NCBI GenBank assembly: GCA_903927295.1
Contig: CAIYMN010000036.1
Span: 1 to 54,165, forward strand
DNA: 54,165 nucleotides
Reading direction: 5' to 3'
Source: an uncultured beta proteobacterium
Lineage (GTDB): Bacteria > Pseudomonadota > Gammaproteobacteria > Burkholderiales > Burkholderiaceae_C
Shown one piece after another: positions 26,175 through 48,322 of the stretch. A program made the position numbers and the translations under genes. Each line of letters begins with the position of its first letter. The stretch's first letter is position 1. Under the pieces are notes generated by a model, which was not told where the DNA came from, did not search any database, and saw nothing but the letters and a program-made list of their open reading frames with translations.

Positions 26175-26208
26175 GCTTGAAGTTCAACAAGACCCATCCT
26201 CAAGAGCA

Positions 26209-27297
26209 TCATTCGATGCTTAGAGTGACGTTATAACCGTTGGACTTCAGCAAGGCGTTCTTCTTCGCTTCAGCCAAATCAACTGTAACCATCTCACTTA
26301 CCATCTCGTCGAGCGTGATCTCCGGCACCCAACCCAGCCTCTCCCTGGCTTTGGTCGGATCCCCCAGCAGTGTTTCAACTTCAGTCGGTCGGAAGTAGCG
26401 CGGATCAATGCGGATGACGGCCTTCTGGTCCCAATAGCCGACTTCGTTGACGCCATCTCCCTCCCAACGAATCAGCATTCCCAGTGCTGCGGCGGTCTTT
26501 TCGATGAACTGGCGCACGCTGTACTGCACACCAGTAGCAATCACAAAGTCCTCCGCCTTGTCCTGCTGCAGCATCAGCCATTGCATGCGCACATAGTCCT
26601 TGGCATGGCCCCAGTCGCGCAGGGCGTCAATATTGCCCATGAACAGACATTCTTCCAGGCCCTGGTTGATGTTGGCCAGGCCCCGGGTGATCTTGCGCGT
26701 GACGAAGGTCTCACCACGGCGTGGGCTCTCGTGGTTGAAGAGGATGCCATTGCAGGCATAAATGTCGTAGGCTTCGCGGTAGTTGACCGTGATCCAGTAG
26801 GCGTACATCTTGGCTACGGCGTACGGGCTGCGCGGGTAAAAAGGCGTTGTTTCTTTTTGCGGGGTTTCCTGCACCAGACCGAAGAGCTCAGACGTTGAGG
26901 CCTGGTAGAAGCGGGTTTTCTTCTCCAGTTTCAGGATGCGAATGGCCTCCAGAATGCGCAGACTGCCCAGCGCATCAACGTCGGCCGTGTATTCCGGACT
27001 CTCGAAGCTGACCGCCACGTGGGACTGGGCGCCGAGGTTGTAGATTTCATCGGGCTGCGTTTCCTGAATGATGCGAATCAGGTTGCTGGTGTCGGTGAGG
27101 TCGCCATAGTGCAACTTGAAATTGGCGTTCTCGATGTGCGGGTCCTGGTAGATGTGATCGACACGCTGGGTGTTGAAGGAACTGGCGCGGCGCTTGATGC
27201 CATGCACGATGTAGCCTTTTTCCAGCAGAAACTCGGCCAGGTAGGAGCCGTCCTGTCCCGTGATGCCGGTGATGAGCGCAGTTTTGCAAGTTTTCAT
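26209..27297 (-). CDS. gmd: GDP-mannose 4,6-dehydratase
   Basis: 362 residues from ATG 27297 ([20 protein letters not shown]), where ATGA overlaps the fcl stop by 4 bp. The NADP motif [10 protein letters not shown], the [15 protein letters not shown] segment and the catalytic [10 protein letters not shown] (YxxxK) match Gmd. It converts GDP-D-mannose to GDP-4-keto-6-deoxymannose, the first committed step to GDP-L-fucose. The upstream in-frame ATG would extend into fcl without homology. The product feeds Fcl and finally the GT11 fucosyltransferase in this operon. Confidence 0.95.
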
Positions 27298-28259
27298 AGT
27301 TTCTTCAAAAAATCCTGATACGCCAGTGACAATCCTCGAGTCAAATCCATAGTCGCACTCCACCCCATGGCATTGAGACGACTGCTGTCCATCAGCTTGC
27401 GCGGTGTTCCATCCGGCTTGCTGGGGTCGAAGTCAATGCTGCCAGTAAAGCCGATGGCCTGACCGACTGCCTGCGCGAGTTCGGCGATCGTGATATCAGA
27501 GCCGTAACCGACGTTGATCTGGCTTTGCATCGGCTGGGTCTGTTCCTCGTAGATGGCTTTGGGCAGATTCATCACGAACACACTGGCCGCTGCCATGTCA
27601 TCAACATAGAGAAATTCGCGCCTTGGCGTGCCACTACCCCAGATGGTGACGCCGGGAAGTTTGTCTGCCTTTGCCTCATGGAAACGCCGGATCAGTGCCG
27701 GGATGACGTGCGAATTCTCGGGGTGGTAGTTATCGCCCGGGCCATAGAGGTTGGTCGGCATGACACTGCGGTAGTCAACTTCGTGGCTGGCTCCATATTG
27801 GCGGTTGTAGCTTTCACACATCTTGATGCCGGCAATCTTGGCGATGGCGTAGGGCTCGTTGGTGGGCTCCAGCGGGCCAGTCTGCAAGGCGGATTCGCTC
27901 ATGGGCTGCGGAACCAGCTTGGGGTAGATGCAGCTTGATCCTAGAAACAGGAGTCGCTTGACACCGGCGCACCAGGCCTGGTGGATGACATTGGCCTGCA
28001 CCATCAGGTTCTGGTAGATGAATTCAGCCGGATAGGTGTTGTTGGCGTGGATGCCTCCAACCCTCGCAGCCGCCAGATAAACCTGGTCCGGTCTTTCAGC
28101 TTCAAAAAATGTCCGGACAGCGCTCTGATCGCACAGATCAAGTTCGCGATGGCTGCGCATCACCAGATTGTTCTGACCTTGCTGTTGCAAGGCTCGAACA
28201 ATGGCCGAGCCGACCATGCCCTGGTGTCCCGCAACGTATATCTTCTGTTGAACCAACAT
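27294..28259 (-). CDS. fcl: GDP-L-fucose synthase
   Basis: 321 residues from ATG 28259. The Rossmann motif is [18 protein letters not shown] and the catalytic [20 protein letters not shown] (YxxxK) follows, both diagnostic of the epimerase-reductase Fcl/WcaG. It makes GDP-L-fucose from the Gmd product. It lies seven bases from rfbC and overlaps gmd by 4 bp. Longer starts upstream overlap rfbC and are rejected. Confidence 0.95.
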
Positions 28260-28266
28260 GAACTGC

Positions 28267-28821
28267 TCAGTCCTCTCCAAACAGCGGCGCATCCGCCAGT
28301 GCCAAGCCGCTCTGATCTTTGGCCGATACGAGCGGAGAAGCGCCTGACAAGGGCCAGGCGACGGCCAGAGTTGGGTCGTCCCAGGCGATGCAGCGCTCAA
28401 ATTGAGGTGCATAGTAATCGGTCGTTTTGTAGAGAAAATCTGCCGATTCGCTCAGGGTCAGGAAGCCGTGCGCAAAACCGGGCGGCACCCACATCTGCCG
28501 ATTGTTCTGTTCCGACAATTCGGTACCGACCCATTTCCCAAAAGTTGCGGAAGACTTTCGCAGATCAACCGCCACGTCGAACACCGCACCACGCACGACC
28601 CGCACCAGTTTCCCCTGGGATTGCTCAATCTGATAATGCAGACCACGCAGTACACCCCTGGCGGAACGTGAATGATTGTCCTGTACAAAATTGACGCCAA
28701 GTCCACTCGCTTTTTGAAAGGCGTTCTGATTGAAACTCTCGAAGAAAAAACCGCGAACGTCACCAAAAACCCGGGGTTCAATGATGAGGACGTCGGCAAT
28801 CTCCGTAGTGATGATCTTCAT
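28267..28821 (-). CDS. rfbC: dTDP-4-dehydrorhamnose 3,5-epimerase
   Basis: 184 residues from ATG 28821 ([20 protein letters not shown]). The [17 protein letters not shown] (catalytic His) and [11 protein letters not shown] motifs are those of RmlC cupins. It epimerises C3 and C5 of dTDP-4-keto-6-deoxyglucose. The gene order rfbB-D-A-C is complete and contiguous, with 14 bp to rfbA. The longer frame overlaps rfbA and is not used. Confidence 0.96.
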
Positions 28822-28835
28822 GGCAGCTTCTGCAA

Positions 28836-29729
28836 TCAGGGTTCGTGGCGATGGCGTTCGTTGAGCAACCTCAACAGGTATTGACCGTAACCATTCTTGG
28901 CCAGCGGTTGTGCCAGCCTTTCCAGTTGCGCGTCGCCGATGAAACCGTTGCGCCAGGCAATTTCTTCGACGCACGCCACCTTCAGCCCCTGACGCCGCTC
29001 CAGGGTCGCAATGAACTGGCTGGCTTCCAGCAAACTGTCGTGTGTCCCGGTATCAAGCCAGGCGTATCCACGCTGCATGATTTGCACATTGAGCTTGCCT
29101 TGTTCCAGATAAGCCTGATTGACGGCTGTGATTTCCAGTTCGCCACGGGCGCTGGGTTTCACTGCTTTGGCTATGTCGACCACGCGAGCATCATAAAAAT
29201 ACAGGCCGGTGACGGCGTAGTTGCTTTTCGGTTTGAGGGGCTTTTCTTCAATGCTGCTGGCCCTGCCCTGGACGTCAAAAGCCACAACACCGTAACGCTC
29301 CGGATCCTGGACGTGATACGCAAATACCGTTGCGCCATCCATCTTTTTATCGGCACCTGCCAGCAAGGGGCCAAAGTCGTGACCGTAGAAAATGTTGTCC
29401 CCCAGTACCAGCGCACTAGGAGCATTCCCCAGAAATTGGTCGCCAATGATGAAAGCCTGCGCCAAGCCGTCCGGACTGGGCTGAACGGCATACTGAAGAT
29501 TCAGACCCCACTGCGAACCGTCGCCCAATAGCTGCTGAAAGCGCGGCGTGTCCTGCGGCGTGCTGATCACCAGAATGTCTCGTATGCCCGCGAGCATCAG
29601 GGTGCTCAAGGGGTAATAGATCATCGGCTTGTCGTACACCGGCAGCAGTTGCTTGCTCATCGCCAAAGTGGCAGGGTGCAAGCGTGTACCGGAGCCACCT
29701 GCCAGGATGATGCCTTTACGTTGTGTCAT
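28836..29729 (-). CDS. rfbA: Glucose-1-phosphate thymidylyltransferase
   Basis: 297 residues. The nucleotide-binding [20 protein letters not shown] and [20 protein letters not shown] segments and [10 protein letters not shown] are standard RmlA. It makes dTDP-glucose from dTTP and glucose-1-phosphate and starts the dTDP-L-rhamnose pathway. It ends just before the rfbC start and begins 15 bp downstream of rfbD. Length equals that of the large group-2-type RmlA (about 290-300 residues). Confidence 0.96.
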
Positions 29730-29744
29730 GTTCGGTCTTCCAGA

Positions 29745-30635
29745 CTAAAGCGTTTCGGCCAGCATGCGATTCACACCCTCTTGCCAGGATGGCAAATGCA
29801 GGTCAAAGGTCGTTTGCAGCTTGCGCGTATCCAGACGCGAGTTGTGCGGGCGCTGCGCGGCAGTCACGAAGGCACTGCTCGGCACTGCCAGCACTTCCGA
29901 CGCCTTCAATTGAAGGTCCGGTTGCAAGCGCTTGGCCTGCTCCAGCACGTGCTTTGCATAGCCCCACCAACTGGTCTCACCACTGGCCGCCAGGTGGTAA
30001 AGCCCGGCATCTGCGGGTCGACTCAATACCTGCCGCAGGGCATGCGCGGTCACGTCGGCCAACAGTTCAGCGCCGGTAGGGGCGCCGATCTGATCATCAA
30101 TGACGGTCAGACGGTCACGTTCCTGCGCCAGTCGCAACATGGTCGTGGCAAAGTTGCCACCGCGCGCCGCATAGACCCAACTGGTCCGGAAAATAAGATG
30201 TTGCTGGCAGGCCGCCTGAATCAGTTGCTCACCTTCGAACTTGGTCAGGCCATAGACGCTCAGCGGCGCCGGTGTGTCGTTCTCAGTCCAGGCCCGGCTG
30301 CCACTGCCGTCAAAGACATAGTCGGTGCTGTAATGCACGAACCAGGCACCAAGTCGCTGCGCCTCTTGCGCCAGCAATCCCGGCGCCGCAGCATTGAGCG
30401 TGCGAACCAGATCAGGCTCGCTCTCAGCCTTGTCCACAGCGGTGTGCGCGGCGGCGTTGACAATGATGTCTGGCTTGACGTCCCGAACGGTGGCAATCAA
30501 GGCTGTCGGGTCGCCGAAATTCCCGCAATAGTCGGTGCTGTCATGGTCCAAGGCAACGATGTCGCCCAGGGTTGCCAGGCTGCGCTGCAATTCCCAGCCG
30601 ACCTGCCCACCTTTGCCGAACAGAAGAATTTTCAT
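29745..30635 (-). CDS. rfbD: dTDP-4-dehydrorhamnose reductase
   Basis: 296 residues from ATG 30635, which overlaps the rfbB stop by 4 bp (ATGA). The NADPH motif [17 protein letters not shown], the [12 protein letters not shown] active-site strand and [11 protein letters not shown] (YxxxK) match RmlD. It reduces dTDP-4-keto-L-rhamnose to dTDP-L-rhamnose, the final step. Ten extra in-frame residues upstream lie inside rfbB and are rejected. Confidence 0.96.
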
Positions 30636-31696
30636 GACCGCCTGGTGTAGTTTGTCTGCACCCACTCGCGGTATGCGCCGCTCTGCACATGCGCCACCCA
30701 GTCAGGATTGTCGAGGTACCACTGCACCGTCTTGCGAATGCCGGAATCAAAGGTCTCGGCAGGCTTCCAACCCAGTTCCCTCTCGATCTTGCCGGCGTCA
30801 ATCGCATAGCGCCTGTCGTGGCCCGGGCGGTCCTGCACGTAGGTGACCTGCGTCTTGTAAAGCGCGCCATCGCTCCTGGGGCGCAATTCGTCCAGGAGCG
30901 AGCAGACGGTGTGCACAATCTCGATGTTGGGCTTCTCGTTCCAGCCGCCCACGTTATAGACTTCACCGACTTTGCCGGCCGCCAGTACCCGGCGAATGGC
31001 GCTGCAGTGATCCTTGACGTAGAGCCAGTCACGCACTTGCAGGCCATCACCATAAACCGGTAAGGGTTTGCCTGCCAGCGCGTTGACAATCAGCAGCGGG
31101 ATCAACTTTTCTGGGAAATGCAGCGGCCCGTAGTTATTGCTGCAGTTGGTCGTTAGAACCGGCAGCCCGTAGGTGTGCAACCAGGCACGCACCAGGTGAT
31201 CACTGGCAGCTTTGCTCGCAGAGTAGGGGCTGTTGGGCTCCAGCTTGTTGGTCTCGGTGAAAGCGGCATCGGTGGGTGACAGGCTGCCGTACACCTCGTC
31301 AGTCGAAACATGCAGGAACCGGAAATCTGCACGCTCACTCTCGGGCAAACCCTGCCAGTAGGAACGCACACTCTGCAGCAGGCGCATGGTGCCAACGACG
31401 TTGGTCTGGATGAAATCCTCCGGTCCATGGATGGAACGGTCTACATGACTCTCTGCCGCGAAATTGAGTACGGCGCGTGGCGCGTATTGCGTCAGCAACT
31501 TTTCCACCAGGCTCGAGTCACCAATGTCGCCTTTCACAAACACGTAACGGGAGTCGCCCTGCAGGCTGGCCAGATTTTCGGGATTACCGGCGTAAGTCAG
31601 TTTGTCCAGATTGAGGACAGGCTCATCCGTCTGACGCAACCAGTCGAGCACAAAGTTGGCGCCAATAAAGCCTGCCCCGCCAGTAACCAGAATCAT
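30632..31696 (-). CDS. rfbB: dTDP-glucose 4,6-dehydratase
   Basis: 354 residues from ATG 31696, preceded by a GGGGGGAAAC ribosome-binding region. [27 protein letters not shown] and [15 protein letters not shown] (YxxxK) are RmlB signatures. It converts dTDP-glucose to the 4-keto-6-deoxy intermediate. It is the first gene of the long polysaccharide operon. A rho-independent terminator of the upstream gene lies only 38 bp before its ATG, so the operon promoter is hard to place (see findings). Confidence 0.96.
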
Positions 31697-31734
31697 TGTT
31701 TCCCCCCGATTTGATCGGCAACCATCAAAAAAGC

Positions 31735-31757
31735 AAAAAAGGGCGCCCAAAGCGCCC
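31735..31757 (-). terminator. Rho-independent terminator after the fatty acyl reductase gene
   Basis: On the minus strand GGGCGC (31757-31752) and GCGCCC (31746-31741) form a perfect six-base-pair stem with loop TTTGG, followed by TTTTTT (31740-31735) and a further T-rich run. It lies 30 bp past the stop of the acyl reductase gene and before rfbB. The plus-strand reading lacks a T run, so it acts toward the left. It separates the storage-lipid cluster from the polysaccharide operon. Confidence 0.8.
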
Positions 31758-31786: not shown

Positions 31787-33784
31787 TCAGAAGTGAATTC
31801 CCCTCATCATTTGCTGCAACGCAACCGCCTCGTGCGACAGCTGCTGCTTGACCGGCTTGTCCCCCGGCTTGGCGCCTTTTGCCGCACCGGAGTCCGGGAA
31901 CATGCGAAAACTCGTGTTCATTGCAATTTGTGCGACACGCGGTAACAAGGCATGCAGCAACTGCCCGGTGATGCCCAGCCGCGTGGCAACACGCACCGGC
32001 TTGAAGATGCAGGCTTGCGCGATCATGTCGGCTGCTTCTTCGGGAGCGAGCGTTGGCACGTTGTTGTACAGGCCAGTGGGTGCAATCATGGGCGTACGCA
32101 CGAGAGGCATGTTGATCGTGGTAAACGAAATGCCCTGGTCTGCGAACTCGCTGGAAGCACAGCGCGTCCAGGCGTCCAGCGCCGCTTTGGAAGCCACATA
32201 GGCGCTAAAACGCGGCGCATTGGTCAGGACACCAATCGAGCTGATATTGACGACATGACCCTTCTTGCGCGCCACCATGCCTGGCAGGAAACCCATGGTG
32301 ACACGCAAACAGCCAAAATAGTTCAGCTGCATCGTACGTTCATAGTCGTGGAACCGGTCATAGCTTGATTCAATGGCACGCCGGATCGAACGCCCTGCGT
32401 TGTTGATCAGGAAGTCCACGCCACCGTGGTCTGCAATCAGCTGCTTCACAAAGCGGTCACAGTCGGCGAGGTCGGCAATGTCGGCGGGGTAGGCCACGAA
32501 ACTGTAGCCCTTGTCCCGGGCCTGCTGGCAGGCTTCTTCCAGCTTGGCGGTGTCACGCCCGCAAATGATCGTGGTGGCGCCCGCTTCGGCAAACTTGTGC
32601 GCTGCCGCCAGCCCAATGCCGGAAGAGCCGCCGGTAATCAAGACCACCTTCCCGCCCACGGTACCGCGCAGCGACCTGTCAATGTGCAAATCCGGGTCAA
32701 GATGGCGTTCCCAGTAGTCCCAGAGCCGCCAGGCGTAATCCTTGAGGTTCGGGCAGACCACATCAGAACCTTTCAGCGCCGCCAACGTATCGCGGCAATC
32801 GAAGCGCGTCGGGTAATTGACAAAGGTAAGCATGTCTTGCGGCAGGCCCAGATCCTTCATGACCGCGTTTCGTACGCGGCGTACCGGCGCCAGCGCCATC
32901 AGCCCCTTGGTGACGCTGCGTGGAATGAAACCAAGCAGGGCGGCGTTGACAAAGAGATTCATCTTGGGTGCATGCGCCGCACGGCTGAAGATGTCCAGAA
33001 CATCGCCGACGCGGTATCCCACGGGATCGACCAGGTGGTAACACTTCTTGTCAATGTCCGCCTTGTGACTGATGGTATCGAGCGCATCCACCACAAAATC
33101 GACTGGCACGATGTTGATACGTCCACCCTCCAGTCCGATCGAGGGCAGCCACGGCGGCAGCAACTGGCGCATGCGCTGAATCAACTTGAAGAAATAGTAA
33201 GGACCGTCGATCTTGTCCATTTCCCCCGTGACACTGTCGCCCACGACCATGGCAGGGCGATAGACGGACCACGGCACACGGCATTCCAGGCGAACAATCT
33301 TCTCGCTTTCGTGCTTGGTCATGAAATAGGGGTGCTCGTAGTTCTCGGCTTCGTCAAACATGTCCTCGCGGAACACGCCCTCGTACAAGCCAGCGGCCGC
33401 GATCGAACTGACATGATGAAAATGCCCGGTGCCAATGAGCTTGGCCAGTTCCACGGTGTTGCGCGTGCCATCCACATTGACCGCAATCTGGCTTGCCTCA
33501 TCGGCGCCCAGATCGTAAACTGCCGCGAGGTGATAGAAGTGATCAATCTGACCTTTGAGCTTCTTCACGTCGTCAGCAGAAATCCCCAGCTTCTTTGAGG
33601 TCAGATCGCCAAACACCGGCACTGCACGCGTCGCGCCGGTGCTCCAGTACTTGCGCAAAGCCGCGACCTTGTCGTGACTCTCCTTGCGGATCAGGAAGTA
33701 GACGACCGAGCCCTTGCGCTCCAGCAGTTTCTTGACCAGCCGTTTTCCAATAAACCCGGTTGCACCGGTGACAAAGTACTGCAT
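31787..33784 (-). CDS. Two-domain fatty acyl-CoA/ACP reductase (alcohol-forming type)
   Basis: 665 residues from ATG 33784; GGAGG lies five bases upstream, and an ATG four codons earlier is inside that site. The N-terminal half is a NAD-binding-4/male-sterility domain: YFVTGATGFIGKRL (about 3-16), HHVSSIAAAGLYEG, and YFMTK (153-157) as YxxxK. The C-terminal half is a classical SDR: LITGGSSGIGLAAAHKFAEA (from about 382), NNAG (461-464), NISSIG and YVASK (529-533). This fusion and length match Marinobacter Maqu_2507-type fatty acyl reductases, which reduce acyl-CoA through aldehyde to alcohol; the C-half also resembles Acinetobacter Acr1. Its neighbours (phasin, WS/DGAT, acyl-CoA-binding protein) support wax-ester precursor formation. 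Confidence 0.82.
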   Translation of the reverse strand: MQYFVTGATGFIGKRLVKKLLERKGSVVYFLIRKESHDKVAALRKYWSTGATRAVPVFGDLTSKKLGISADDVKKLKGQIDHFYHLAAVYDLGADEASQIAVNVDGTRNTVELAKLIGTGHFHHVSSIAAAGLYEGVFREDMFDEAENYEHPYFMTKHESEKIVRLECRVPWSVYRPAMVVGDSVTGEMDKIDGPYYFFKLIQRMRQLLPPWLPSIGLEGGRINIVPVDFVVDALDTISHKADIDKKCYHLVDPVGYRVGDVLDIFSRAAHAPKMNLFVNAALLGFIPRSVTKGLMALAPVRRVRNAVMKDLGLPQDMLTFVNYPTRFDCRDTLAALKGSDVVCPNLKDYAWRLWDYWERHLDPDLHIDRSLRGTVGGKVVLITGGSSGIGLAAAHKFAEAGATTIICGRDTAKLEEACQQARDKGYSFVAYPADIADLADCDRFVKQLIADHGGVDFLINNAGRSIRRAIESSYDRFHDYERTMQLNYFGCLRVTMGFLPGMVARKKGHVVNISSIGVLTNAPRFSAYVASKAALDAWTRCASSEFADQGISFTTINMPLVRTPMIAPTGLYNNVPTLAPEEAADMIAQACIFKPVRVATRLGITGQLLHALLPRVAQIAMNTSFRMFPDSGAAKGAKPGDKPVKQQLSHEAVALQQMMRGIHF

Positions 33785-33965
33785 CAAAACCTCCATTTAG
33801 TTGGCACATTCTTGCCCAGATTTCACTTTCAGCCATTCAGCACAAACCCGTGGCCCGGTAGATTGCCCTCTCTAGCAATTTAGGAAGACCCACCTACACA
33901 GTGCCTCGACCTGCCCTTACAGTGAGTGCCATTATCCAAATTTATCAACCCGTCTGGAGTTTCCC

Positions 33966-34487
33966 ATGGTCACAAAGCTGAAAAAGTCAAATTCATCGAA
34001 GAACAGTTCCTCGCCGCTCAAGGGCTCGGTCAAGGACTCTGCTCAACAAATCTGGCAGGCTGGCCTGGGTGCTTTCACCAAAGCGCAAGCCGAGGGCACG
34101 AAAGCCATTGAAGCCCTGATCAAGGAAGGCGTCAGCATTCAACGCAAGACACAATCTGTCGCTGAAGAAAAGTTGTCTGAAGCGAGCAGCAAGATGTCAA
34201 GCATGGCGACAGACATTTCTTCCAAAGCCTCCGGTCAATGGGACAAACTGGAAAGCATTTTTGAAGATCGCGTGGCCAAGGCACTCAACAAACTGGGTGT
34301 TCCATCCGCCAAGGATGTCAGTGCCCTGATTGCCAGAATTGATGAATTGAACAAGAGCGTTCAAAAGCTTTCCGCCAAAGGCGCTGCCCCGAAAGCAGCC
34401 GCCAAGAAAGTGGTCAAGACCGCTGCCAAGCCGGCACTGAAGAAGGCAAGCAAACCGGCGGCGAAACGCGCCGCAGCGGTAGTTTGA
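33966..34487 (+). CDS. PhaF/PhaI-type phasin (granule-associated protein)
   Basis: 173 residues with GGAG nine bases before the ATG. A helical phasin domain occupies about 20-140 (QIWQAGLGAFTKAQAEGTKA and the amphipathic EDRVAKALNKLGVPSAKDVS). The C-terminal 35 residues are Ala/Lys/Pro repeats (AAKPALKKASKPAAKRAAA), a histone H1-like tail that in PhaF binds DNA and helps segregate granules. Family members coat polyhydroxyalkanoate granules. Here it is divergent from a fatty acyl reductase and 160 bp upstream of a lipase, which suggests a coat protein for neutral-lipid or PHA bodies. The sequence is followed by palindromes and a terminator. Confidence 0.87.
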   Translation: MVTKLKKSNSSKNSSSPLKGSVKDSAQQIWQAGLGAFTKAQAEGTKAIEALIKEGVSIQRKTQSVAEEKLSEASSKMSSMATDISSKASGQWDKLESIFEDRVAKALNKLGVPSAKDVSALIARIDELNKSVQKLSAKGAAPKAAAKKVVKTAAKPALKKASKPAAKRAAAVV

Positions 34488-34510
34488 TAGCCGGCTGTCG
34501 TGACATGATT

Positions 34511-34548
34511 CAAGGTACTGACAGTACCTGGTACGAAGAAGTACCTTG
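34511..34548. repeat. Nested GTAC palindromes downstream of the phasin gene
   Basis: CAAGGTACT (34511-34519) pairs perfectly with AGTACCTTG (34540-34548), and inside this lies the perfect palindrome GTACCTGGTAC (34524-34534); GGTACTG-A-CAGTACC (34514-34528) is an alternative perfect stem. Four GTAC cores occur in 38 bp, with a fifth in GGTACTTG at 34592. The structure could be an mRNA 3' hairpin of the phasin transcript or an operator array. Confidence 0.55.
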
Positions 34549-34559
34549 ATGAAAAATAT

Positions 34560-34585
34560 GGGTGCTTGTGCGCCCATTTTCTTTT
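34560..34585 (+). terminator. Likely rho-independent terminator of the phasin gene
   Basis: GGGTGC (34560-34565) and GCGCCC (34570-34575) form a six-pair stem with one G-U pair and the loop TTGT, followed by ATTTTCTTTT. It lies about 70 bp after the phasin stop and before the patatin gene, so the phasin and lipase are probably separate transcripts. Confidence 0.65.
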
Positions 34586-34595
34586 GCAATTGGTA

Positions 34596-34614
34596 CTTGT
34601 TGCATCGCAACAAG
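34596..34614. promoter_or_regulatory. Perfect inverted repeat upstream of the patatin-TetR operon
   Basis: CTTGTTGC-ATC-GCAACAAG is a perfect 8-bp inverted repeat with a 3-base spacer, 33 bp before the patatin ATG. Because the operon carries a TetR gene that overlaps the lipase gene, this is the best candidate operator for autoregulation. The patatin ATG has no clear Shine-Dalgarno sequence, and no confident -10/-35 pair was found. Confidence 0.5.
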
Positions 34615-34647
34615 CAGTGAGTTCGATCAGACATACACTTTGTTCTT

Positions 34648-35901
34648 ATGAAGCACAAACCATCACAGGCACCAAGAATTGCGCTGGCATTGTCAGGTGG
34701 CGGTCCACTAGGCGCCATTTACGAAATTGGCGCACTGTGTGCGTTGGAAGAGTCGCTCCACGGAATCGACTTCACGAAGTTGCAGCATTACGTTGGCGTT
34801 TCAGCGGGCGGCTTCATTGCTGCCGGCTTGGCCAACCGCATTACGCCGCGGGAATTGTGTTCCTTGTTCATAGAAAATGACAACCCGCTGGCTGAGACCT
34901 TCGACCCCTCCTGGCTGATGACGCCTGCTTATGGCGAGTTTGCGCGTCGCGGCATCATGCTGCCGGCCCTGCTGATCGCCGCCCTGTGGCAAGTCACCGC
35001 GGATCGCAAGCCGTTTACACAGGCGCTGCAGCACCTGGGGCCAAGCTTGCCTGCTGGCATTTTTTCCAGTGAGAAGATGCACATTCAACTGGAGCGTCTT
35101 TTCTCGCAGAAGGGCCGCAGCAATGACTTCCGCAAACTGAAAACCGAACTGACTTTGGTCGCCACCAATCTGGACAGTGGCGAGGCTGCTCCCTTTGGTC
35201 GTCCAGGGTGGGACCACATTCCAATTTCCAAAGCTGTCCAGGCCAGCGCCGCCCTGCCAGGGCTGTTTCCCCCTGTTGAAATTGATGACAACTATTACGT
35301 GGACGGTGCCCTGAAGAAGACTATGCACGCATCGGTTGCACTGGACCAGGGAATTGACCTGATGCTGTGCCTCAATCCGCTGGTGCCGTTTGACGCCACC
35401 GCACCACAGGTCGCCAAAGTCATGCGCCGCGGCCTTTCCGGAGACAAGCACCATATCCCGCGCATTGTGGACGGCGGACTGCCAGCCGTGTTGAGTCAGA
35501 CATTCCGCTCCCTCATTCACTCGCGCATGGTGCTGGGCATGAGACAGTACGAACACGCCTACCCAGACACCGACATCATCCTTATCGAGCCAGATCATCG
35601 CGACCCCGAACTGTATCTGGCCAACACCTTCAGCTACTCGCAGCGTCGTCGTCTGGCAGAACACGCTTACCAACAAACCCGACAATTGCTGCGTTCACGC
35701 AAGACCGGTCTGTCCGCCAAATTGTGGCGCCATGGCATAAGTTTGCGCCATGAGACACTGGACGATCCAAAGCGGCATTTGAGCCAGCCGGTTCCGGCCT
35801 CGACGCAGGTGGGACGGGCCATCGGAAAATTGCAGGAAATTATGGACGACCTGGGGCATACCGTGACGTCTGTGACGCATGCGAGATCGTCCTTATGGTG
35901 A
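34648..35901 (+). CDS. Patatin-like phospholipase
   Basis: 417 residues. The oxyanion-hole loop SGGGPLGAIYEIG (about 16-28), nucleophile motif GVSAGG (about 50-55, GxSxG) and the catalytic Asp in YVDGALKKT are all present, so a Ser-Asp catalytic dyad is intact. Patatin proteins hydrolyse acyl ester bonds of phospholipids or neutral lipids. The lipid cluster context suggests mobilisation of stored acylglycerol or wax ester, but a phospholipase role is equally allowed. No signal peptide is visible, so it is cytosolic. The TetR gene starts inside its last codons (7-bp overlap). Confidence 0.9.
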   Translation: MKHKPSQAPRIALALSGGGPLGAIYEIGALCALEESLHGIDFTKLQHYVGVSAGGFIAAGLANRITPRELCSLFIENDNPLAETFDPSWLMTPAYGEFARRGIMLPALLIAALWQVTADRKPFTQALQHLGPSLPAGIFSSEKMHIQLERLFSQKGRSNDFRKLKTELTLVATNLDSGEAAPFGRPGWDHIPISKAVQASAALPGLFPPVEIDDNYYVDGALKKTMHASVALDQGIDLMLCLNPLVPFDATAPQVAKVMRRGLSGDKHHIPRIVDGGLPAVLSQTFRSLIHSRMVLGMRQYEHAYPDTDIILIEPDHRDPELYLANTFSYSQRRRLAEHAYQQTRQLLRSRKTGLSAKLWRHGISLRHETLDDPKRHLSQPVPASTQVGRAIGKLQEIMDDLGHTVTSVTHARSSLW

Positions 35902-36557
35902 AGAAGGCACCCCGGCGCACCGCCGAGCGCATTCTGGAAGTAAGCCTTGAACTGTTCAATCGCTTTGGTGAGCCCAACGTTTCTACCACGCTGATTTCAG
36001 CCGAGTTGGGCATCAGCCCAGGCAACCTCTACTACCACTATCCTGCCAAAGACGAGCTAATCAACTCCCTGTTTGACCGCTACGAACGGGGCCTCAATGA
36101 GTTGTTGAACGCCAGCGACGGCGTGCGAGATGTCGAGGACGCATGGTTCTTCATGCACACCCTTTTTGAACTGATCTGGCAATACCGTTTCCTGTACCGG
36201 GATTTGAACGACCTGCTGAGCAAGAACCGGCGCCTTGAGACGCATTTTCAGGCGGTTCTGAAAAACAAGACCCGCGCGGTGAAGGCCTTGCTCGACAGCA
36301 TGAGTCGTTCAGGCGCCATTGCCATCGATTCGCGTGAAGTAGAGGCCACCGCCACCAGCATGGTGGTGGTATTGACGTACTGGTTGAGTTTTGAATATGT
36401 TCGCGATCCGCGCCGCGCACTCGAAACCGAAAACGCACAGTCAGCCCTGCTGCGAGGCGCGCATCATGTGTTGAACCTGCTGGTGCCGTATCTGGAACCG
36501 AGCCAGCGAAACCATTTGCTCAAATTGGCTGGCGCCTACAATAATGACGACAAGTAG
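35895..36557 (+). CDS. TetR/AcrR family regulator (lipid cluster)
   Basis: 220 residues. The HTH is STTLISAELGISPGNLYYHY at about 30-49, typical of TetR repressors; the ligand-binding domain has FFMHTLFELIWQYRFLYRDL, a pattern common in regulators bound to fatty-acid or PHA genes. ATG 35895 lies inside the patatin stop region, so the two are coupled. It probably controls the patatin-TetR-TPR operon through the palindrome at 34596-34614. The effector is unknown; long-chain acyl-CoA is a guess. Confidence 0.87.
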   Translation: MVKKAPRRTAERILEVSLELFNRFGEPNVSTTLISAELGISPGNLYYHYPAKDELINSLFDRYERGLNELLNASDGVRDVEDAWFFMHTLFELIWQYRFLYRDLNDLLSKNRRLETHFQAVLKNKTRAVKALLDSMSRSGAIAIDSREVEATATSMVVVLTYWLSFEYVRDPRRALETENAQSALLRGAHHVLNLLVPYLEPSQRNHLLKLAGAYNNDDK

Positions 36558-36580
36558 CCCACCAGGCACCGGAGACAAGC

Positions 36581-37354
36581 ATGGCCAACTGGACCGCCTT
36601 TCCCTATGCAGGCGAGTATGTCTTTGACGCTGCAAGTGTCAGGAAATACTGGTCCCGCTTGCACGCGGGCGACGCCGAGCCCCTGCCCACTGATGCCAAG
36701 GTCCTGCAAGCCTGGGCCCTGTTTCACAGCGGCGAATTCGAGAAAGCCATGGAGCTTGGTCTCAAGATTGGTGGCGCAGGCCTGGCTGTAGCCAACAAAT
36801 CTGCGTGCATTTACGCCACCTATCTGGAAAAGCAGGAAAAGACCAGGCTTGACCTTTACCAGGAAGTTGCACAACGCGCCGCTGCACAAGTGCAGGAAGA
36901 TCCAATGGATGCAAGCGCCCTGTACTGGCATGCCTACGCGTTGAGCCGCTATAGCCAGGGCATCAGCGTAGCCAAGGCCCTGGCGCAGGGGCTCGGCAGC
37001 AAGGTCAAAGGCTCACTCGAAGACGTGATCCGGTTGCGGCCGAATCACGCCGATGCCCATATTGCCCTGGGGACCTTTCATGCCGAAGTGATCGACAAGG
37101 TTGGTTCACTGATTGGCAGCATGACTTACGGCGCCAAGAAAGATACCGGGCTGGCCCTGTTGCAGCAAGCACTCAAATTGAACTTTGAGTCGACCATCGG
37201 CATGATTGAATATGCCAACGCCATGCTGATGCTTGAAGGCGACAGGATGATCAAGGAAGCGACCCGCCTTTACCAGCAAGCAGCCACCGCCAAACCGGTT
37301 GATGCCACAGAGCGTCTCGATATCGAATTGGCTAAAGGGGAACTGGACGACTGA
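36581..37354 (+). CDS. TPR-like conserved hypothetical protein
   Basis: 257 residues with GGAG six bases from the ATG. The sequence is mostly helical, with tetratricopeptide-like repeats: AKVLQAWALFHSGEFEKAME, DASALYWHAYALSRY, RLRPNHADAHIALGTFHAEV and LALLQQALKLNF. No catalytic motif or membrane segment is visible. It closes the patatin-TetR operon (23 bp after TetR) and faces the WS/DGAT gene convergently with a 3-bp gap. The position suggests a scaffold or adaptor for the lipid granule proteins, but the function is unknown. Confidence 0.8.
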   Translation: MANWTAFPYAGEYVFDAASVRKYWSRLHAGDAEPLPTDAKVLQAWALFHSGEFEKAMELGLKIGGAGLAVANKSACIYATYLEKQEKTRLDLYQEVAQRAAAQVQEDPMDASALYWHAYALSRYSQGISVAKALAQGLGSKVKGSLEDVIRLRPNHADAHIALGTFHAEVIDKVGSLIGSMTYGAKKDTGLALLQQALKLNFESTIGMIEYANAMLMLEGDRMIKEATRLYQQAATAKPVDATERLDIELAKGELDD

Positions 37355-37357
37355 GCC

Positions 37358-38944
37358 TCACTCGCTCCACGGCAGCATCAAGGTCACCATGGCCAGTTTG
37401 GCAAATTCCGGATCAAACTGATCAATGATTTTCTGCGGTTCCGGGCACAGCGTCGAATCGCTGATCACGCCAAACTGCACACCACCGCCATAGCTCAGTA
37501 TCGAGACGCCCAGACCGACGGTCCCTGACTGCGGCACCCAGAACAGGCTTTGCTCAAGGGTCGAACCACAAAATTGCAGTTTCTCGCGCGGCCCCGGAAC
37601 ATTGGTCATGACAGCAGTGGTCTTCTTGGAGAACAAGCTGAGCATGGCGTCCTGTGCCGGCTTGATCAGCAAGCCGGCCACGGACAGCAAGCCAAATGCC
37701 ATCAGGGGCTGCATGCTGCCCTTTAACTGGTTCATGCGGCGCCGTACTTCATACACGCGCTCGACCGGATTCTCTATGCCAATGGGCAAGACCACCGGTG
37801 CCAAGCCAAACCGGTTGCCCAATTTGTAAGCTTCCTCCAGGGGACGCAGATTCACGGGCACCATGGCCCGTATCTCCTTGCCCGCCACATCATCGCCAAA
37901 GGATTTCAGGTACTCGGCTATGGCGCCAGCGACGCAACTGAGCAAAATATCATTGATGGAGCAGTTCAGTGCACGACCCACGGCCTTGACTTCTTCCAGC
38001 GGAATCGGCTCACACCAGGCCACGCGCTTGCTCTGCCCCGGAATGCCCTTGAGGCGCGTCGGCGAGTCATCCGGCATCAACGCCAGGGCGGCTCCATCGC
38101 GCAGCACTTGATAGACCATCTTGGCCAACTCGACCGAACCAGCCACACCCTTTTCCATACCTCTTTGCGGGCCCATCATCATCCCCACGGCATTTACCGC
38201 GCCCTCACCCGCAGCCCCTAGCGCTTTCACCGTCACATCGGTGAACGGCTTGATCAGCGTGTCCATCAACCAGTCTTCAGCCCCCTCCAGACCGGCCGAA
38301 TGCGCTGTCTTGGGTTTGCGCTGAGGCGGCATGGCACCGCCGTCCACAAGCGACTGGGTGACAGAAATCAGTGCAATGCCATCGGCGATGCAGTGGTGGA
38401 TGCGAACCAGCAAGGCAGAGCCGCCCTGGTAATTTTCAACCAGGTGAAATTGCCACAGGGGATGATGCATGTCCAGCGGTTGCACGGCAAGTTCGGCCAG
38501 GCGGTCCTGCAAGGCCTGCTGCTCACGTCCCCTGGACTTGGCGCTGAGTTTCTCAACAACCACATGCCTCTTGATGTCAAAATCTTGGTCCGTAACCCAG
38601 GTAGCCCCGGCCGCGTCCTGCTGCACGCGCTGACCAAAGCGCGGATACTTGAGCAAGCGCTCCTCTATGCGCTCACAAACCGCCTTGTAGCTGACGCCCG
38701 GCCGCAGAATCCAGACGCCGACAATCATCATCAAATTGCTCGGTGAATCCATACGCAACCACGCGGTGTCAACCTTGCTCATGCGCTCGCCGGTCAGGCC
38801 TAAAGTCCCGCCGACCGCATCGCTAACATTCTTCTGGACCACGCGCGCAGCCCGGCGCACGGACTTTTGTGCCTTTCTTGCCGCGGGAAGCACGGAGTCA
38901 GTCACCGGTTGTGTGACGCTCCTGGCGTTAATTCGAGTAACCAT
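37358..38944 (-). CDS. Wax ester synthase/diacylglycerol acyltransferase (WS/DGAT)
   Basis: 528 residues from ATG 38944, with GGAG six bases upstream. The catalytic HHCIADG motif (183-189, HHxxxDG) is intact, as are the PLW motif in HPLWQFHLVE and the conserved NDILLS segment. It joins a fatty alcohol or diacylglycerol to acyl-CoA, making wax ester or triacylglycerol, at the inner membrane or lipid body. It has an N-terminal extension of about 50 basic residues compared with the usual 450-480 residues. It is divergent from an acyl-CoA-binding protein gene and near a fatty acyl reductase, which together provide both substrates. Confidence 0.93.
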   Translation of the reverse strand: MVTRINARSVTQPVTDSVLPAARKAQKSVRRAARVVQKNVSDAVGGTLGLTGERMSKVDTAWLRMDSPSNLMMIVGVWILRPGVSYKAVCERIEERLLKYPRFGQRVQQDAAGATWVTDQDFDIKRHVVVEKLSAKSRGREQQALQDRLAELAVQPLDMHHPLWQFHLVENYQGGSALLVRIHHCIADGIALISVTQSLVDGGAMPPQRKPKTAHSAGLEGAEDWLMDTLIKPFTDVTVKALGAAGEGAVNAVGMMMGPQRGMEKGVAGSVELAKMVYQVLRDGAALALMPDDSPTRLKGIPGQSKRVAWCEPIPLEEVKAVGRALNCSINDILLSCVAGAIAEYLKSFGDDVAGKEIRAMVPVNLRPLEEAYKLGNRFGLAPVVLPIGIENPVERVYEVRRRMNQLKGSMQPLMAFGLLSVAGLLIKPAQDAMLSLFSKKTTAVMTNVPGPREKLQFCGSTLEQSLFWVPQSGTVGLGVSILSYGGGVQFGVISDSTLCPEPQKIIDQFDPEFAKLAMVTLMLPWSE

Positions 38945-39081
38945 CAAGAACTCCAGATTCAAGAAACTATGACAAAAGACTGATTCTTCGGGAAGGCCCC
39001 CTATTTTGTGGCCAAAACCGAAAGTAAGATACTGCGCACATACCCCAACTGTGCTGGGTAACCACCTGATCCGGAGAAACC

Positions 39082-39336
39082 ATGTCTGATCTGCAAGCAA
39101 AATTCGACGCTGCCGTCGCCAATTCAAAGAAGCTCACGGAGCGCCCCGACAACGCTACGTTGCTCAAGATCTATGCCTTGTACAAGCAAGCCAGCACTGG
39201 CGACAATGCGGACAAGAAGCCTGGTTTCGGCGACATGGTGGGACGCGCCAAATGGGATGCCTGGAACGGTTTCAAGGGCACCAGCAACCAGGACGCGATG
39301 CAGCAGTACATCGACCTGATTGAATCGCTGAGCTGA
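39082..39336 (+). CDS. Acyl-CoA-binding protein
   Basis: 84 residues, GGAG in front of the ATG. The four-helix ACBP signature is clear: YALYKQASTGD (acyl-CoA pocket Tyr/Lys), RAKWDAWNGFKGTS and the terminal YIDLIESLS. ACBPs bind long-chain acyl-CoA with high affinity and buffer or deliver it. They are scattered in bacteria, so the position 137 bp divergent from a WS/DGAT is informative: it is likely the acyl-CoA supplier for that enzyme. It ends convergent with the PHA granule-region gene, with an inverted repeat covering the junction. Confidence 0.94.
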   Translation: MSDLQAKFDAAVANSKKLTERPDNATLLKIYALYKQASTGDNADKKPGFGDMVGRAKWDAWNGFKGTSNQDAMQQYIDLIESLS

Positions 39337-39340
39337 CAAT

Positions 39341-39378
39341 CCGACCGGGCCGTTACGACTTCTTTCTGACCCGGTCGG
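39341..39378. terminator. Possible bidirectional hairpin between convergent ACBP and PHA genes
   Basis: CCGACCGGG (39341-39349) and CCCGGTCGG (39370-39378) form a perfect nine-pair stem with a 20-base loop, spanning the gap between the ACBP stop (39336) and the PHA granule-region stop (39353). No T run follows on either strand, so it may be a processing or rho-dependent element rather than a classical terminator. Confidence 0.4.
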
Positions 39379-39682
39379 GTCTTGCGGTAGCGGCGACAGG
39401 CAGCATGTCATCGAGCATCTTCACGATCTCGCTCTCGATCCTGCCCTTGAAGGCACCAACCAGAAAGCCGAGTCTGGCCTTGAGTTCGAATCGGTCCTTG
39501 GTGACCGTCAGAGTGCCCTCCACGCCGGTCCGTACAAAACAGACTTCATCGGTACTCTTGCCCTCTTCGTAAGTGCAAGTCATGCTGAAATCTTTTTCGA
39601 CCTGTTCAGCCCATTGGAAGGCGAGTTTTCGTGCTGCCTGCAATCCCAATGTGTGATGGCGCAAGATGTGAAGATCGGCCAC
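39353..39682 (-). CDS. Polyhydroxyalkanoic acid system family protein (PHA granule region)
   Basis: 109 residues from a GTG at 39682, preceded by GGAGT at eight bases; the longer open frame upstream runs through the DUF1840 gene antisense and is rejected. The core HTLGLQAARKLAFQWAEQVE and the following GVEGTLTVTKDRFELKARLG match the PHA_gran_rgn (TIGR02610) family found in PHA gene regions. Its biochemical role is not defined. It supports the presence of PHA-type inclusion metabolism in this cluster. It starts only 12 bp from the divergent DUF1840 gene. Confidence 0.85.
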   Translation of the reverse strand: MADLHILRHHTLGLQAARKLAFQWAEQVEKDFSMTCTYEEGKSTDEVCFVRTGVEGTLTVTKDRFELKARLGFLVGAFKGRIESEIVKMLDDMLPVAATARPDRVRKKS

Positions 39683-39694
39683 TTGATTACTCCT

Positions 39695-40039
39695 ATGCTC
39701 TATAAATTCAAATCCAAAGTCACGGGCGACCTCATCATGCTGCAGCCCAACGGACGCCGAATGTTGGAGATCATCGGCAAAATCGACGACACCAGCAACG
39801 GCTGTGACGCCGACAAAGGCATCATCCTGCCGGAGCAAATGCCAGCTGCACTGGTAGCGTTGGCAGCGGCGGTTGCGCAGGAAGCTGCCGACAGAACAGC
39901 TGCCCTGGCGGATGCGCTCGCGCACCATCTGCCAGCACCGCGCTTTGAGGCCATCTCGTTGCGCCAGCGCGCCCTTCCCTTCATCGAGATGCTGCAACGC
40001 TGCGAAAAGGCTGGACACGCCATAGTCTGGGGCGTTTGA
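39695..40039 (+). CDS. DUF1840 family protein
   Basis: 114 residues from ATG 39695 (MLYKFKSKVTGDLIMLQPNG). The conserved blocks KGIILPEQMPAAL and the C-terminal ISLRQRALPFIEML, ending AIVWGV, are typical of DUF1840, a small betaproteobacterial family. It lacks a ribosome-binding site, because the bases upstream are the start and RBS of the divergent GTG-start PHA gene. A leaderless mRNA or overlapping promoters are implied. Function unknown. Confidence 0.85.
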   Translation: MLYKFKSKVTGDLIMLQPNGRRMLEIIGKIDDTSNGCDADKGIILPEQMPAALVALAAAVAQEAADRTAALADALAHHLPAPRFEAISLRQRALPFIEMLQRCEKAGHAIVWGV

Positions 40040-41981: not shown

Positions 41982-43928
41982 ATGCAGACCACATTTCCTC
42001 AACTTCTTCTCAATCACGCCGCGCAACGGCCGACAGAGCCTGCCATGCGCGAGAAAGAGTACGGCATCTGGCAGGCGCTGACCTGGGCCGACCTGGCAAC
42101 GCTGGTGACTGAACTGGCTTGCGGTCTGCATCTGGCGGGCTTGCGTCGCCATGAGCACATGATCGTCATTGGCGCGAACCGACCCCGCCTGTACGCCACC
42201 ATGCTGGCCGTTCAATCGCTTGGAGCCATTCCCGTCCCGCTGTATCAGGATGCAGCGGCGCCCGAGTGCGTATTTCCCATCAACAACGCGGATGTGCGTT
42301 TCGCCTTTGCGGAAGATCAGGAGCAGGTCGACAAGTTGCTGGAGATCCGTGATGAATGTCCGCAGCTGAGTCACCTTTACTTTGACGATCCACGTGGTCT
42401 GCGCAACTACGATGAGCCTGGTCTCGCCTCGCTGGATGACCTGCTTGCCGCCGGCAAGGCCTTTGCTGCACAGAACCCCGGCTTTCTGCAGGCAGAAGTT
42501 GATCAAAGCAAGCCCACGGATGTGGCCGCCATGTTCTTTACGTCGGGCACGACAGGCAACCCGAAGGGAGTCGTGCATACCCACGACTCCTTGCTCAACC
42601 GGGCACGCGCCGGTGCCGAGTTTGACAAGTTGACCCATTCCGAGGACGTGCTGGCCTACCTGCCGCCAGCCTGGATCGGTCAAAATATTTTCAGCTATGC
42701 GCAGTGGCTCTCCTGCGGCTATGTTGTCAATTGCCCGGAGTCGGCAGCCACAGTGACGATCGATCTGAAAGAAGTCGGGCCCACCTACTATTTCGCACCG
42801 CCTCGGGTCTTTGAGGGCCTGCTCACCAGCGTCATGATCCGCATGGAAGATGCCGGCGCCCTGAAACGCCGCATGTTTCACTATTTCATGGGCGTTGCAC
42901 AACGCGTTGGACCCACGCGCATGGACGGCAAGCCCATCGGCCTCGCCAATTCGATTCTGTACGCTTTAGGCAATGCGCTTGTTTACGGGCCCTTGCGCAA
43001 CAACCTTGGCATGAGCCGGGTGCGGGTCGCCTACACCGCTGGTGAAGCCATCGGCCCGGACCTGTTCAGCTTCTACCGCTCCATCGGCATCAACCTCAAG
43101 CAACTCTACGGCTCCACCGAAACCGCCGTTTTCGTCTGTCTGCAACCCGATAACGAGGCGCGCGCCGACACCGTTGGCGTGCCCTGTGCCGGCGTCGAAA
43201 TCAAGGTGGCCGAGAACGGCGAGATTCTGGTCAAGTCACCCGGTTTGCTCAAAGAGTACTTCAAGAATCCGGCTGCGACGGCTGAAGTGCTGACGGCCGA
43301 TGGTTGGTACCACACCAGCGACGCCGGTTTTCTCGACGCCCATGGCCATCTGAAAATCATCGACCGCGTGAAAGATGTCGGGCGCATCAAGGGCGGCGCC
43401 AACGATGGTGCGATGTTTGCTCCCAAGTACGTCGAAAACAAACTCAAGTTCTTTCCCCACATCAAGGAAGTCGTGGCCTACGGCGATGGCCGCGAGAAGG
43501 TCTGCGTCATGATCAACATTGATTTTGACGCCGTCGGCAACTGGGCGGAGCGCCGCAATCTGCCCTATGCCGGCTATACCGATCTGGCGCAGAAGCCCGA
43601 GGTTTACCAGTTGATCAAGGAGTGCGTTGAAAAGGTCAACGCCGACCTCAGCGTGGACCTGCTGCTGGCCGGTTCGCAGGTCAGCCGCTTTCTGGTACTG
43701 CACAAGGAACTCGATGCTGACGACGGTGAGCTCACGCGAACCAACAAGGTTCGCCGTGGTTTCATTGCCGAAAAATACGATGTGCTGATCGACGCCCTCT
43801 ACGGCGGCAAGACCACGCAGTTCATCGAAACCCAGGTGAAATTTGAAGATGGCCGCACCGGCAGCGTCAGTGCCACACTGAAAATTGAAGACACCAAGAC
43901 CTTTGCACCGGTCAAAGCGGCTGCCTGA
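41982..43928 (+). CDS. AMP-dependent acyl-CoA synthetase/ligase
   Basis: 648 residues, typical of long-chain or aromatic acyl-CoA ligases. The ATP/AMP P-loop is AMFFTSGTTGNPKGVVHTH (about 183-201). YGSTETAV is the A5 motif, and the SDAGFLDAHGHLKIIDR segment is A7-A8, with KVRRGFI near the C-terminus. It activates a carboxylic acid as a CoA thioester. Its position directly before a Liv-type ABC transporter suggests that it activates the imported substrate. The exact acid is not determined; fatty or aryl acids are possible. Confidence 0.9.
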   Translation: MQTTFPQLLLNHAAQRPTEPAMREKEYGIWQALTWADLATLVTELACGLHLAGLRRHEHMIVIGANRPRLYATMLAVQSLGAIPVPLYQDAAAPECVFPINNADVRFAFAEDQEQVDKLLEIRDECPQLSHLYFDDPRGLRNYDEPGLASLDDLLAAGKAFAAQNPGFLQAEVDQSKPTDVAAMFFTSGTTGNPKGVVHTHDSLLNRARAGAEFDKLTHSEDVLAYLPPAWIGQNIFSYAQWLSCGYVVNCPESAATVTIDLKEVGPTYYFAPPRVFEGLLTSVMIRMEDAGALKRRMFHYFMGVAQRVGPTRMDGKPIGLANSILYALGNALVYGPLRNNLGMSRVRVAYTAGEAIGPDLFSFYRSIGINLKQLYGSTETAVFVCLQPDNEARADTVGVPCAGVEIKVAENGEILVKSPGLLKEYFKNPAATAEVLTADGWYHTSDAGFLDAHGHLKIIDRVKDVGRIKGGANDGAMFAPKYVENKLKFFPHIKEVVAYGDGREKVCVMINIDFDAVGNWAERRNLPYAGYTDLAQKPEVYQLIKECVEKVNADLSVDLLLAGSQVSRFLVLHKELDADDGELTRTNKVRRGFIAEKYDVLIDALYGGKTTQFIETQVKFEDGRTGSVSATLKIEDTKTFAPVKAAA

Positions 43929-43945
43929 ATACACGACTGAGAATC

Positions 43946-44731
43946 ATGGCAACAAAACAAATTGGCGACGTCGTTCTTGACGTCAACAACATTTCCCTGA
44001 GCTTCGGCGGCGTCAAGGCCTTGACCGACATCTCGTTCAATGTCCGTGAGCACGAAGTCCGGGCCATCATCGGCCCAAACGGTGCCGGCAAAAGTTCGAT
44101 GCTCAACTGCATCAACGGGGTCTACACACCACAGCAGGGTTCCATCACCTTTCGGGGCAAGGCCTTCAGCCACATGGACAGTCACCAGGTCGCCGTCATG
44201 GGGATCGGGCGCACTTTCCAGAATCTCGCCTTGTTCAAGGGCATGAGCGTGATCGACAACATCATGACCGGGCGCAATCTGAAGATCAAGAGTAATTTGC
44301 TGTGGCAGGCCCTGCGCATCGGCCCGGCGCAGCGCGAAGAAGAAATGCATCGCGAAGCGGTTGAGCACATCATCGACTTCCTGGAAATTCAGGCGCACCG
44401 CAAGACACCGGTCGGGCAATTGCCCTACGGACTGCAAAAACGCGTTGACCTGGGGCGCGCCCTGGCCATGGAGCCGCAGGTCTTGCTGCTCGATGAACCG
44501 ATGGCCGGCATGAACGTCGAAGAAAAGCAGGACATGTGCCGCTTTGTGCTCGATGTGAACGAAGAATTCGGCACCACCGTGGTCCTGATCGAACACGATA
44601 TGGGCGTCGTGATGGACATTTCAGATCGGGTCGTGGTGCTGGACTACGGCAAGAAGATTGGCGATGGCACGCCTGACGAAGTACGCAATAACGAAGAAGT
44701 GATCAGCGCCTATCTGGGCACCGGTCACTAA
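43946..44731 (+). CDS. livG: Branched-chain amino acid-type ABC transporter ATP-binding protein (LivG)
   Basis: 261 residues. Walker A is GPNGAGKSS (43-51), Walker B is VLLLDEPMAG, and the signature region is the degenerate LPYGLQKRVDLGRALA. The LivG-like extra segment around 78-120 (GIGRTFQNLALFKGMSVIDN) is present. It hydrolyses ATP to drive LivHM. It starts 17 bp after the ligase stop. The family often transports amino acids, but in operons with CoA ligases the substrate is commonly an aromatic or short-chain carboxylate. Confidence 0.93.
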   Translation: MATKQIGDVVLDVNNISLSFGGVKALTDISFNVREHEVRAIIGPNGAGKSSMLNCINGVYTPQQGSITFRGKAFSHMDSHQVAVMGIGRTFQNLALFKGMSVIDNIMTGRNLKIKSNLLWQALRIGPAQREEEMHREAVEHIIDFLEIQAHRKTPVGQLPYGLQKRVDLGRALAMEPQVLLLDEPMAGMNVEEKQDMCRFVLDVNEEFGTTVVLIEHDMGVVMDISDRVVVLDYGKKIGDGTPDEVRNNEEVISAYLGTGH

Positions 44732-44740
44732 GGACAACAT

Positions 44741-45670: not shown

Positions 45671-45693
45671 CCGCTCACAGGAAAAGAAACCTT

Positions 45694-46770: not shown

Positions 46771-46823
46771 GTTCTTTTTCGTTAACCCCAGCACCCAGCG
46801 TGCTACAAACCCAGGAGACAAGC

Positions 46824-48140: not shown

Positions 48141-48154
48141 TCGATTTGTCATCC

Positions 48155-48275: not shown

Positions 48276-48322
48276 CCGAAGCACTGCGCGCAGTGCTTCC
48301 GATTGGTAAAAGGTAAAACGCA

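Follow-up and report, generated by a model that had tools for sequence, protein, structure and literature searches.

To our knowledge, the wax-ester genes of Marinobacter do not form a phasin-linked cluster. In Pseudomonas, the pha locus for medium-chain-length polyhydroxyalkanoates (PHA; phaC1ZC2DFI) comprises a PhaF/PhaI-type phasin, a TetR regulator and a PHA_gran_rgn protein. On scaffolds of Burkholderiales, Galvan et al. 2023 (PMC10351704) describe in their section on clusters a wax ester synthase/DGAT (WS/DGAT) with an adjacent acyl-CoA-binding protein (ACBP), a reductase about 59% identical to MAQU_2507 and a PHA-system protein, as well as a phasin on another scaffold of this order. A set of the same composition (WS/DGAT, ACBP, a MAQU_2507-like short-chain dehydrogenase/reductase (SDR) and a PHA-system protein) lies together at positions 31787-40039 of the stretch analysed here, an entire contig of 54,165 nucleotides (CAIYMN010000036.1, assembly GCA_903927295.1; hereafter the window). 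In the window, genes of a patatin-like lipase, a TetR regulator, a tetratricopeptide repeat (TPR)-like protein and a DUF1840 protein belong to this region as well.

A sequence-only reading of this DNA had regarded the region as an undescribed neutral-lipid storage module with a PHA-type granule coat. The enzyme core and the nearby phasin are already in print, as the cluster section of PMC10351704 demonstrates, and it is the regulatory and coat side which remains as undescribed. The region is probably a wax-ester storage module for making, handling and breaking down reserves. Its fatty acyl-CoA reductase (FAR) and its phasin are encoded divergently, and a conserved predicted operator, which appears to be new, ties the wax-ester reductase to the granule-coat protein.

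Gene content and co-inheritance

All families named in the sequence-only reading were found inside 31787-40039, by profile matches or, for the TPR-like protein, by a fold model; only some coordinates had to be slightly amended, namely those of the ACBP gene and the start of the WS/DGAT gene. The FAR (669 amino acids (aa), 31787-33796, minus strand) is a two-domain enzyme of the MAQU_2507 type and matched NF005539 over nearly its whole length (residues 5-669; 1018.8 bits, cut-off 549), a model whose title is SDR family oxidoreductase only and does not include the acyl-CoA-to-alcohol activity. The domains NAD_binding_4 (PF07993) and adh_short (PF00106) are fused, and the Rossmann and YxxxK motifs are intact in both; among the orthologs, the cofactor motifs of the two domains were present in 86/88 and 88/88 sequences. 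The WS/DGAT (528 aa, 37358-38944, minus strand; TIGR02946, 357 bits, cut-off 309.95) possesses the motifs HHCIADG, PLW and NDILL. Its open reading frame spans 37358-39127, and the Met codon at 38944 is the likely start. The HHxxxDG motif occurred in all 85 orthologs. Divergent to this gene, an ACBP of 84 aa is encoded on the plus strand (39082-39336; PF00887, 101.5 bits). A minus-strand reading frame at 39124-39411 was rejected as the ACBP gene; it had no family match.

The phasin (173 aa, 33966-34487, plus strand) is of the PhaF/PhaI type with an Ala/Lys-rich tail and was recognised by PF05597 (162.5 bits, cut-off 28.8) and TIGR01837 (99.6 bits, cut-off 94.7). It is followed on the same strand by the patatin-like lipase (417 aa, 34648-35901; PF01734, 105.3 bits), which shows the GVSAG and YVDGA motifs of a Ser-Asp dyad (GxSxG in 75 of 78 orthologs), and by the TetR regulator (220 aa, 35895-36557), which consists of a helix-turn-helix domain (PF00440) and the C-terminal domain PF13972.

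For comparison, a fixed sample of 150 genomes from 141 genera of the host's family was analysed. WS/DGAT gave 78 matches, 76 of them orthologs, and FAR was found in 73 genomes, the PF05597 phasin in 110, the patatin in 54 and the TetR in 117. The orthologous set does not contain the sequences of genomes G071 and G122, which were dropped because they are only 28-29% identical, and a single range stands for two fragments in G094. Genome G094 also carries a row of several divergent WS/DGAT-like frames beside phasin, TetR and PHA_gran_rgn genes (locus L115). FAR and WS/DGAT occurred together in 70 genomes and both were missing in 71, with FAR alone in three and WS/DGAT alone in six (Fisher p 1.6e-31, kinship ignored). 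The phasin was present in 73/73 FAR genomes, and in 69 of these it is the divergent neighbour of FAR, no more than 1.5 kb away and with a median gap of 276 bp. The remaining four comprise one divergent pair at 3.1 kb and three genomes in which FAR and phasin lie on separate contigs. The patatin ortholog was restricted to 48 FAR genomes and the six genomes with WS/DGAT only, and was found in 0/71 genomes with neither enzyme. The expectation that these families co-occur in Burkholderiales, raised from the window alone, was thus borne out for the host's family, as was the interpretation as one co-inherited neutral-lipid module.

At 70 loci of relatives, which had been retrieved through their WS/DGAT genes, tblastn detected ACBP (67 loci), PHA_gran_rgn (66), TetR (44), TPR (41), patatin (38), phasin (29), DUF1840 (23) and FAR (21); the counts of the outer genes are lower bounds, because many stretches end early. 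The gene order of the window recurred in isolates and in metagenome-assembled genomes (MAGs), Rhodoferax-like genomes among them. In Hydrogenophaga, a phasin-patatin-TetR-TPR block lies about 8 kb from WS/DGAT in opposite orientation. A MAG labelled Gammaproteobacteria (L098) contains FAR, WS/DGAT, TPR, phasin and patatin within 6.4 kb. At class level, FAR was found in 12/369 genomes, ten of them outside the host's family. One of these loci (L108) unites TetR, FAR, PHA_gran_rgn and phasin, and in another (L106) FAR occurs with TetR and ACBP.

The halves of the module are separate in most genomes and the host assembly is in 400 contigs, and both facts could speak for unrelated genes which became neighbours by chance on a metagenome-assembled contig. 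This explanation is rejected as extremely improbable, because the same order recurs in isolates, MAGs and other genomes of the family and the co-occurrence across the 150 genomes is far above chance. The module genes are an inherited set.

A paired predicted operator between FAR and phasin

The divergent promoter region of FAR and phasin in the window (33797-33965) contains two copies of the predicted operator TAG-N10-CTA, at 33859-33874 and 33881-33896. An expectation-maximisation search in 89 FAR/phasin intergenic regions yielded an inverted repeat with log-likelihoods of 456 and 469 for two widths, in comparison to 30-43 for shuffled regions (three shuffles per width). The core TAG-N10-CTA was present in 86/89 regions (shuffled mean 2.45, maximum 7); this count, like those of the 22-bp spacing below, uses a pattern derived from the same regions. 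In a separate held-out test with eight splits, models trained on one half of the regions recognised 310/356 held-out cases (range 27/44 to 43/45). If the spacer is varied from 6 to 18, a length of 10 stands out with 86 regions; a spacer of 18 gives 23, which in our reading is the product of two CTAG-containing copies 22 bp apart, and all others give at most three. The inner ten bases are weakly symmetric.

Two operator copies were found in 30 regions, and in 27 of them the spacing is exactly 22 bp. Furthermore, ten of the 56 single-copy regions have a near-copy (5/6 letters) at 22 bp, whereas no other offset between 16 and 32 gives more than one. Since 22 bp correspond to two helical turns, this suggests that two dimers would sit on the same face of the DNA. 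Elsewhere in the window, the bare 16-mer is found three more times. The extended form of the second copy occurs a single time in the 4.1-Mb assembly (at 33879), and the backward control does not occur at all.

The core is not a general feature of the module's promoters. It was absent upstream of TetR (0/103), TPR (0/75), PHA_gran_rgn (0/84) and DUF1840 (0/30) and was detected in 2/81 regions upstream of patatin. A search for a motif common to the promoters of FAR/phasin and of WS/ACBP was in general negative. The divergent region between WS/DGAT and ACBP shows a different conserved element, GTAAGATAC, at about 39022-39041, which is perhaps a promoter. At loci without FAR, the core was found upstream of the phasin in 17/35 regions, a set defined by the absence of FAR from the stretch and containing some genomes which have FAR on a different contig. 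The search for a sigma-70-like promoter within 33700-34660 was negative. Directly 3' of the phasin gene, a terminator-like hairpin with a T run lies at 34558-34577; the phasin may therefore be transcribed separately from the patatin-TetR-TPR genes.

The regulator which binds this pair is most likely the TetR of the module, as its linkage to the other genes indicates. It was detected in 77/79 genomes with FAR or WS/DGAT and in 69 of the 70 genomes with both. In 56 of these 70 it is linked to FAR and/or WS/DGAT: within 10 kb it lies near both in 14, near FAR only in 17 and near WS/DGAT only in 25; in a further 13 genomes it is near neither. Thus the regulator mostly keeps to one of the two halves when these are apart. 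It is possible that this TetR senses acyl-CoA. In the open-licence library searched, no description of a FAR/phasin operator or of a link to TetR was found, and a search there for the operator sequence of PhaD was likewise without result.

Lipid product and target of the phasin

The gene content is consistent with the following course of events. FAR would reduce long-chain acyl-CoA to a fatty alcohol, which WS/DGAT would join with a second acyl-CoA to form a wax ester, and ACBP would buffer the acyl-CoA pool. The hydrophobic body would be organised by the PhaF-type phasin together with the PHA_gran_rgn protein, and the patatin-like lipase would hydrolyse the wax ester for re-use. TetR, bound to the paired operator in the FAR/phasin promoter, would switch alcohol supply and coat together.

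Several observations weigh against such a unified module. FAR lies within 10 kb of WS/DGAT in only 15 of the 70 genomes carrying both. The co-occurrence tests ignore relatedness, and a test on independent pairs had three usable pairs. The operator core also occurs in 10/79 WS/ACBP promoters, largely of one lineage (eight near-identical, two with the same sequence). TetR is present in 40 of the 71 genomes with neither FAR nor WS/DGAT. Outside the family, FAR was the only module gene recognised in eight of the ten loci, with no phasin nearby; five of these are on stretches of at most 15 kb. Six genomes possess WS/DGAT and patatin without FAR. In one of them (L132 of genome G027, 99% complete) WS/DGAT, ACBP, patatin, TetR and phasin are kept and FAR is gone from its place between phasin and an rmlB homolog, which looks like a recent loss. 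Finally, the PF05597 phasin is also present in 37/77 genomes without FAR, and at 30 of the 36 such loci retrieved the same TetR lies beside it.

The genomes without FAR bear on the lipid product. As patatin and phasin stay in L132, the neutral lipid stored there may be triacylglycerol. WS/DGAT enzymes are bifunctional, and it is conceivable that the enzyme makes mainly triacylglycerol, with FAR serving the excretion of fatty alcohols, membrane lipids or another purpose. A further WS/DGAT gene in the host genome fits this assumption. We nevertheless consider it improbable, because FAR and WS/DGAT were jointly gained or lost in 141/150 genomes. The further WS/DGAT gene (genome G000, contig C11, L001:1414-2916) reaches 253 bits with PF03007, above the score of the window copy; it adjoins a gene for a DUF1254/DUF1214 protein, and the other module genes are absent from that short contig.

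The phasin counts bear on the coat. The phasin is not confined to wax esters, as the FAR-less genomes keeping it and its TetR show, and the 36 loci reveal a phasin-TetR skeleton in which the lipid enzymes are lacking. Several of these loci also carry TPR, ACBP, PHA_gran_rgn or DUF1840, and most are without WS/DGAT or patatin. The enzymes may have disappeared from a complete module or have been added to a granule set. In a tree of the phasins from 108 genomes (all of the 110 but G071 and G125), in which only 6/105 inner branches are well supported, the presence of FAR requires 13 changes (shuffled mean 30.5).

Phasin, TetR and PHA_gran_rgn might accordingly be an accessory set for PHA granules, beside which the wax-ester enzymes lie without a functional link to the coat. 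The family PF05597 is named after PHA granules, phaC was present in 148/150 genomes, and the phasin-TetR pair at FAR-less loci points in the same direction. Against this, the phasin accompanies FAR in every case in comparison to about half of the other genomes, the two genes share a divergent promoter with a conserved operator pair, and 148/150 genomes have a separate, ordinary polyhydroxybutyrate (PHB) phasin (PF09361). An accessory PHA set is therefore rather unlikely, with a clearly higher probability than a triacylglycerol product. The use of phaC-free genomes as a test of the phasin target was rejected in view of the frequency of phaC. Reportedly, a phasin has been directed to triacylglycerol inclusions in Rhodococcus. 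The phasin of the wax-ester module may coat wax bodies. For the reading in its strictest form, a dedicated and regulated wax-ester organelle of Burkholderiales with a PhaF-type phasin as coat, obligately paired with FAR by a divergent promoter with a helically phased operator pair under TetR beside an independent PHB system, the chance is tentatively put at slightly under even.

If this holds true, roughly one in two genomes sampled from the family would encode, in addition to PHB, another carbon store whose coat protein comes from PHA biology. For Gram-negative cells, the locus would offer a testable case of a phasin acting on neutral lipid, and the predicted operator is open to a binding assay. 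FAR, phasin and the operator pair could also serve as a marker set for wax-ester potential in freshwater Burkholderiales.

Other genes of the locus and comparison with known systems

The TPR-like protein (257 aa, 36581-37354, plus strand) gave only Pfam TPR matches under the cut-off. Its AlphaFold model is all-helical (pLDDT 94.0), and its closest resemblances in the PDB, which are modest, are to a bacterial sterol transporter (7t1s, E 7.1e-5, TM 0.62), the TPR domain of PTPIP51 (7cc7) and a transporter of the TPAT family (8g52). PTPIP51 binds lipid, and the protein may be the lipid carrier of the module; this is a weak lead, because TPR folds resemble each other. The PHA_gran_rgn small protein (39353 to about 39682, minus strand; PF09650, 91.5 bits; TIGR02610, 47.4 bits) putatively starts with GTG, and the DUF1840 protein (about 39695 to 40039, plus strand; PF08895, 94.1 bits) has a likewise predicted start.

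The host is a freshwater Rhodoferax-like bacterium, and its assembly is 86.8% complete. The closest WS/DGAT genes (at most 95% identity) belong to lake MAGs of uncultured betaproteobacteria and Comamonadaceae, followed by Rhodoferax and Hydrogenophaga. To the left, the module is flanked by sugar-nucleotide and polysaccharide genes (dTDP-rhamnose-type and GDP-mannose-type sugar genes and a polysaccharide exporter, 24891-31750), and in many relatives an rmlB homolog adjoins FAR. To the right, genes for a TctC protein, a Crp-type regulator, an AMP-binding enzyme and a branched-chain ABC transporter follow. In several lake MAGs, the acyl-CoA ligase-like AMP-binding gene and the transporter genes (41982-49132) are conserved next to the module; they may supply acyl or aromatic CoA.

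PMC5648520 and PMC2667194 describe a Zoogloea strain without the wax-ester step and Rhodococcus RHA1 without clear phasins. In comparison to the scaffolds of Galvan et al. (PMC10351704), whose section on clusters names no patatin, TetR, TPR protein, divergent FAR/phasin pair or operator and gives no count of conservation across the genomes of the family, these components are described and counted here. With the wax-ester pathway of Marinobacter, the window shares the reductase type (MAQU_2507) and, as predicted, the two-step chemistry; the identity of about 59% to MAQU_2507 is the figure for the Galvan scaffolds, not for the window. Storage granules with a coat protein would be common to the module and the PHB machinery of the same family. 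The PHB genes, however, are near-universal and located elsewhere in the genome: in the host, the only phaC is on contig C309, and PhaC and the PF09361 phasin are distributed over contigs C309, C224 and C359. The module is neither near-universal nor, since it contains no PHA synthase, a PHB or PHA synthesis locus. It resembles the pha locus of Pseudomonas in its phasin, TetR regulator and PHA_gran_rgn protein, but in place of PHA synthase and depolymerase it carries wax-ester enzymes.

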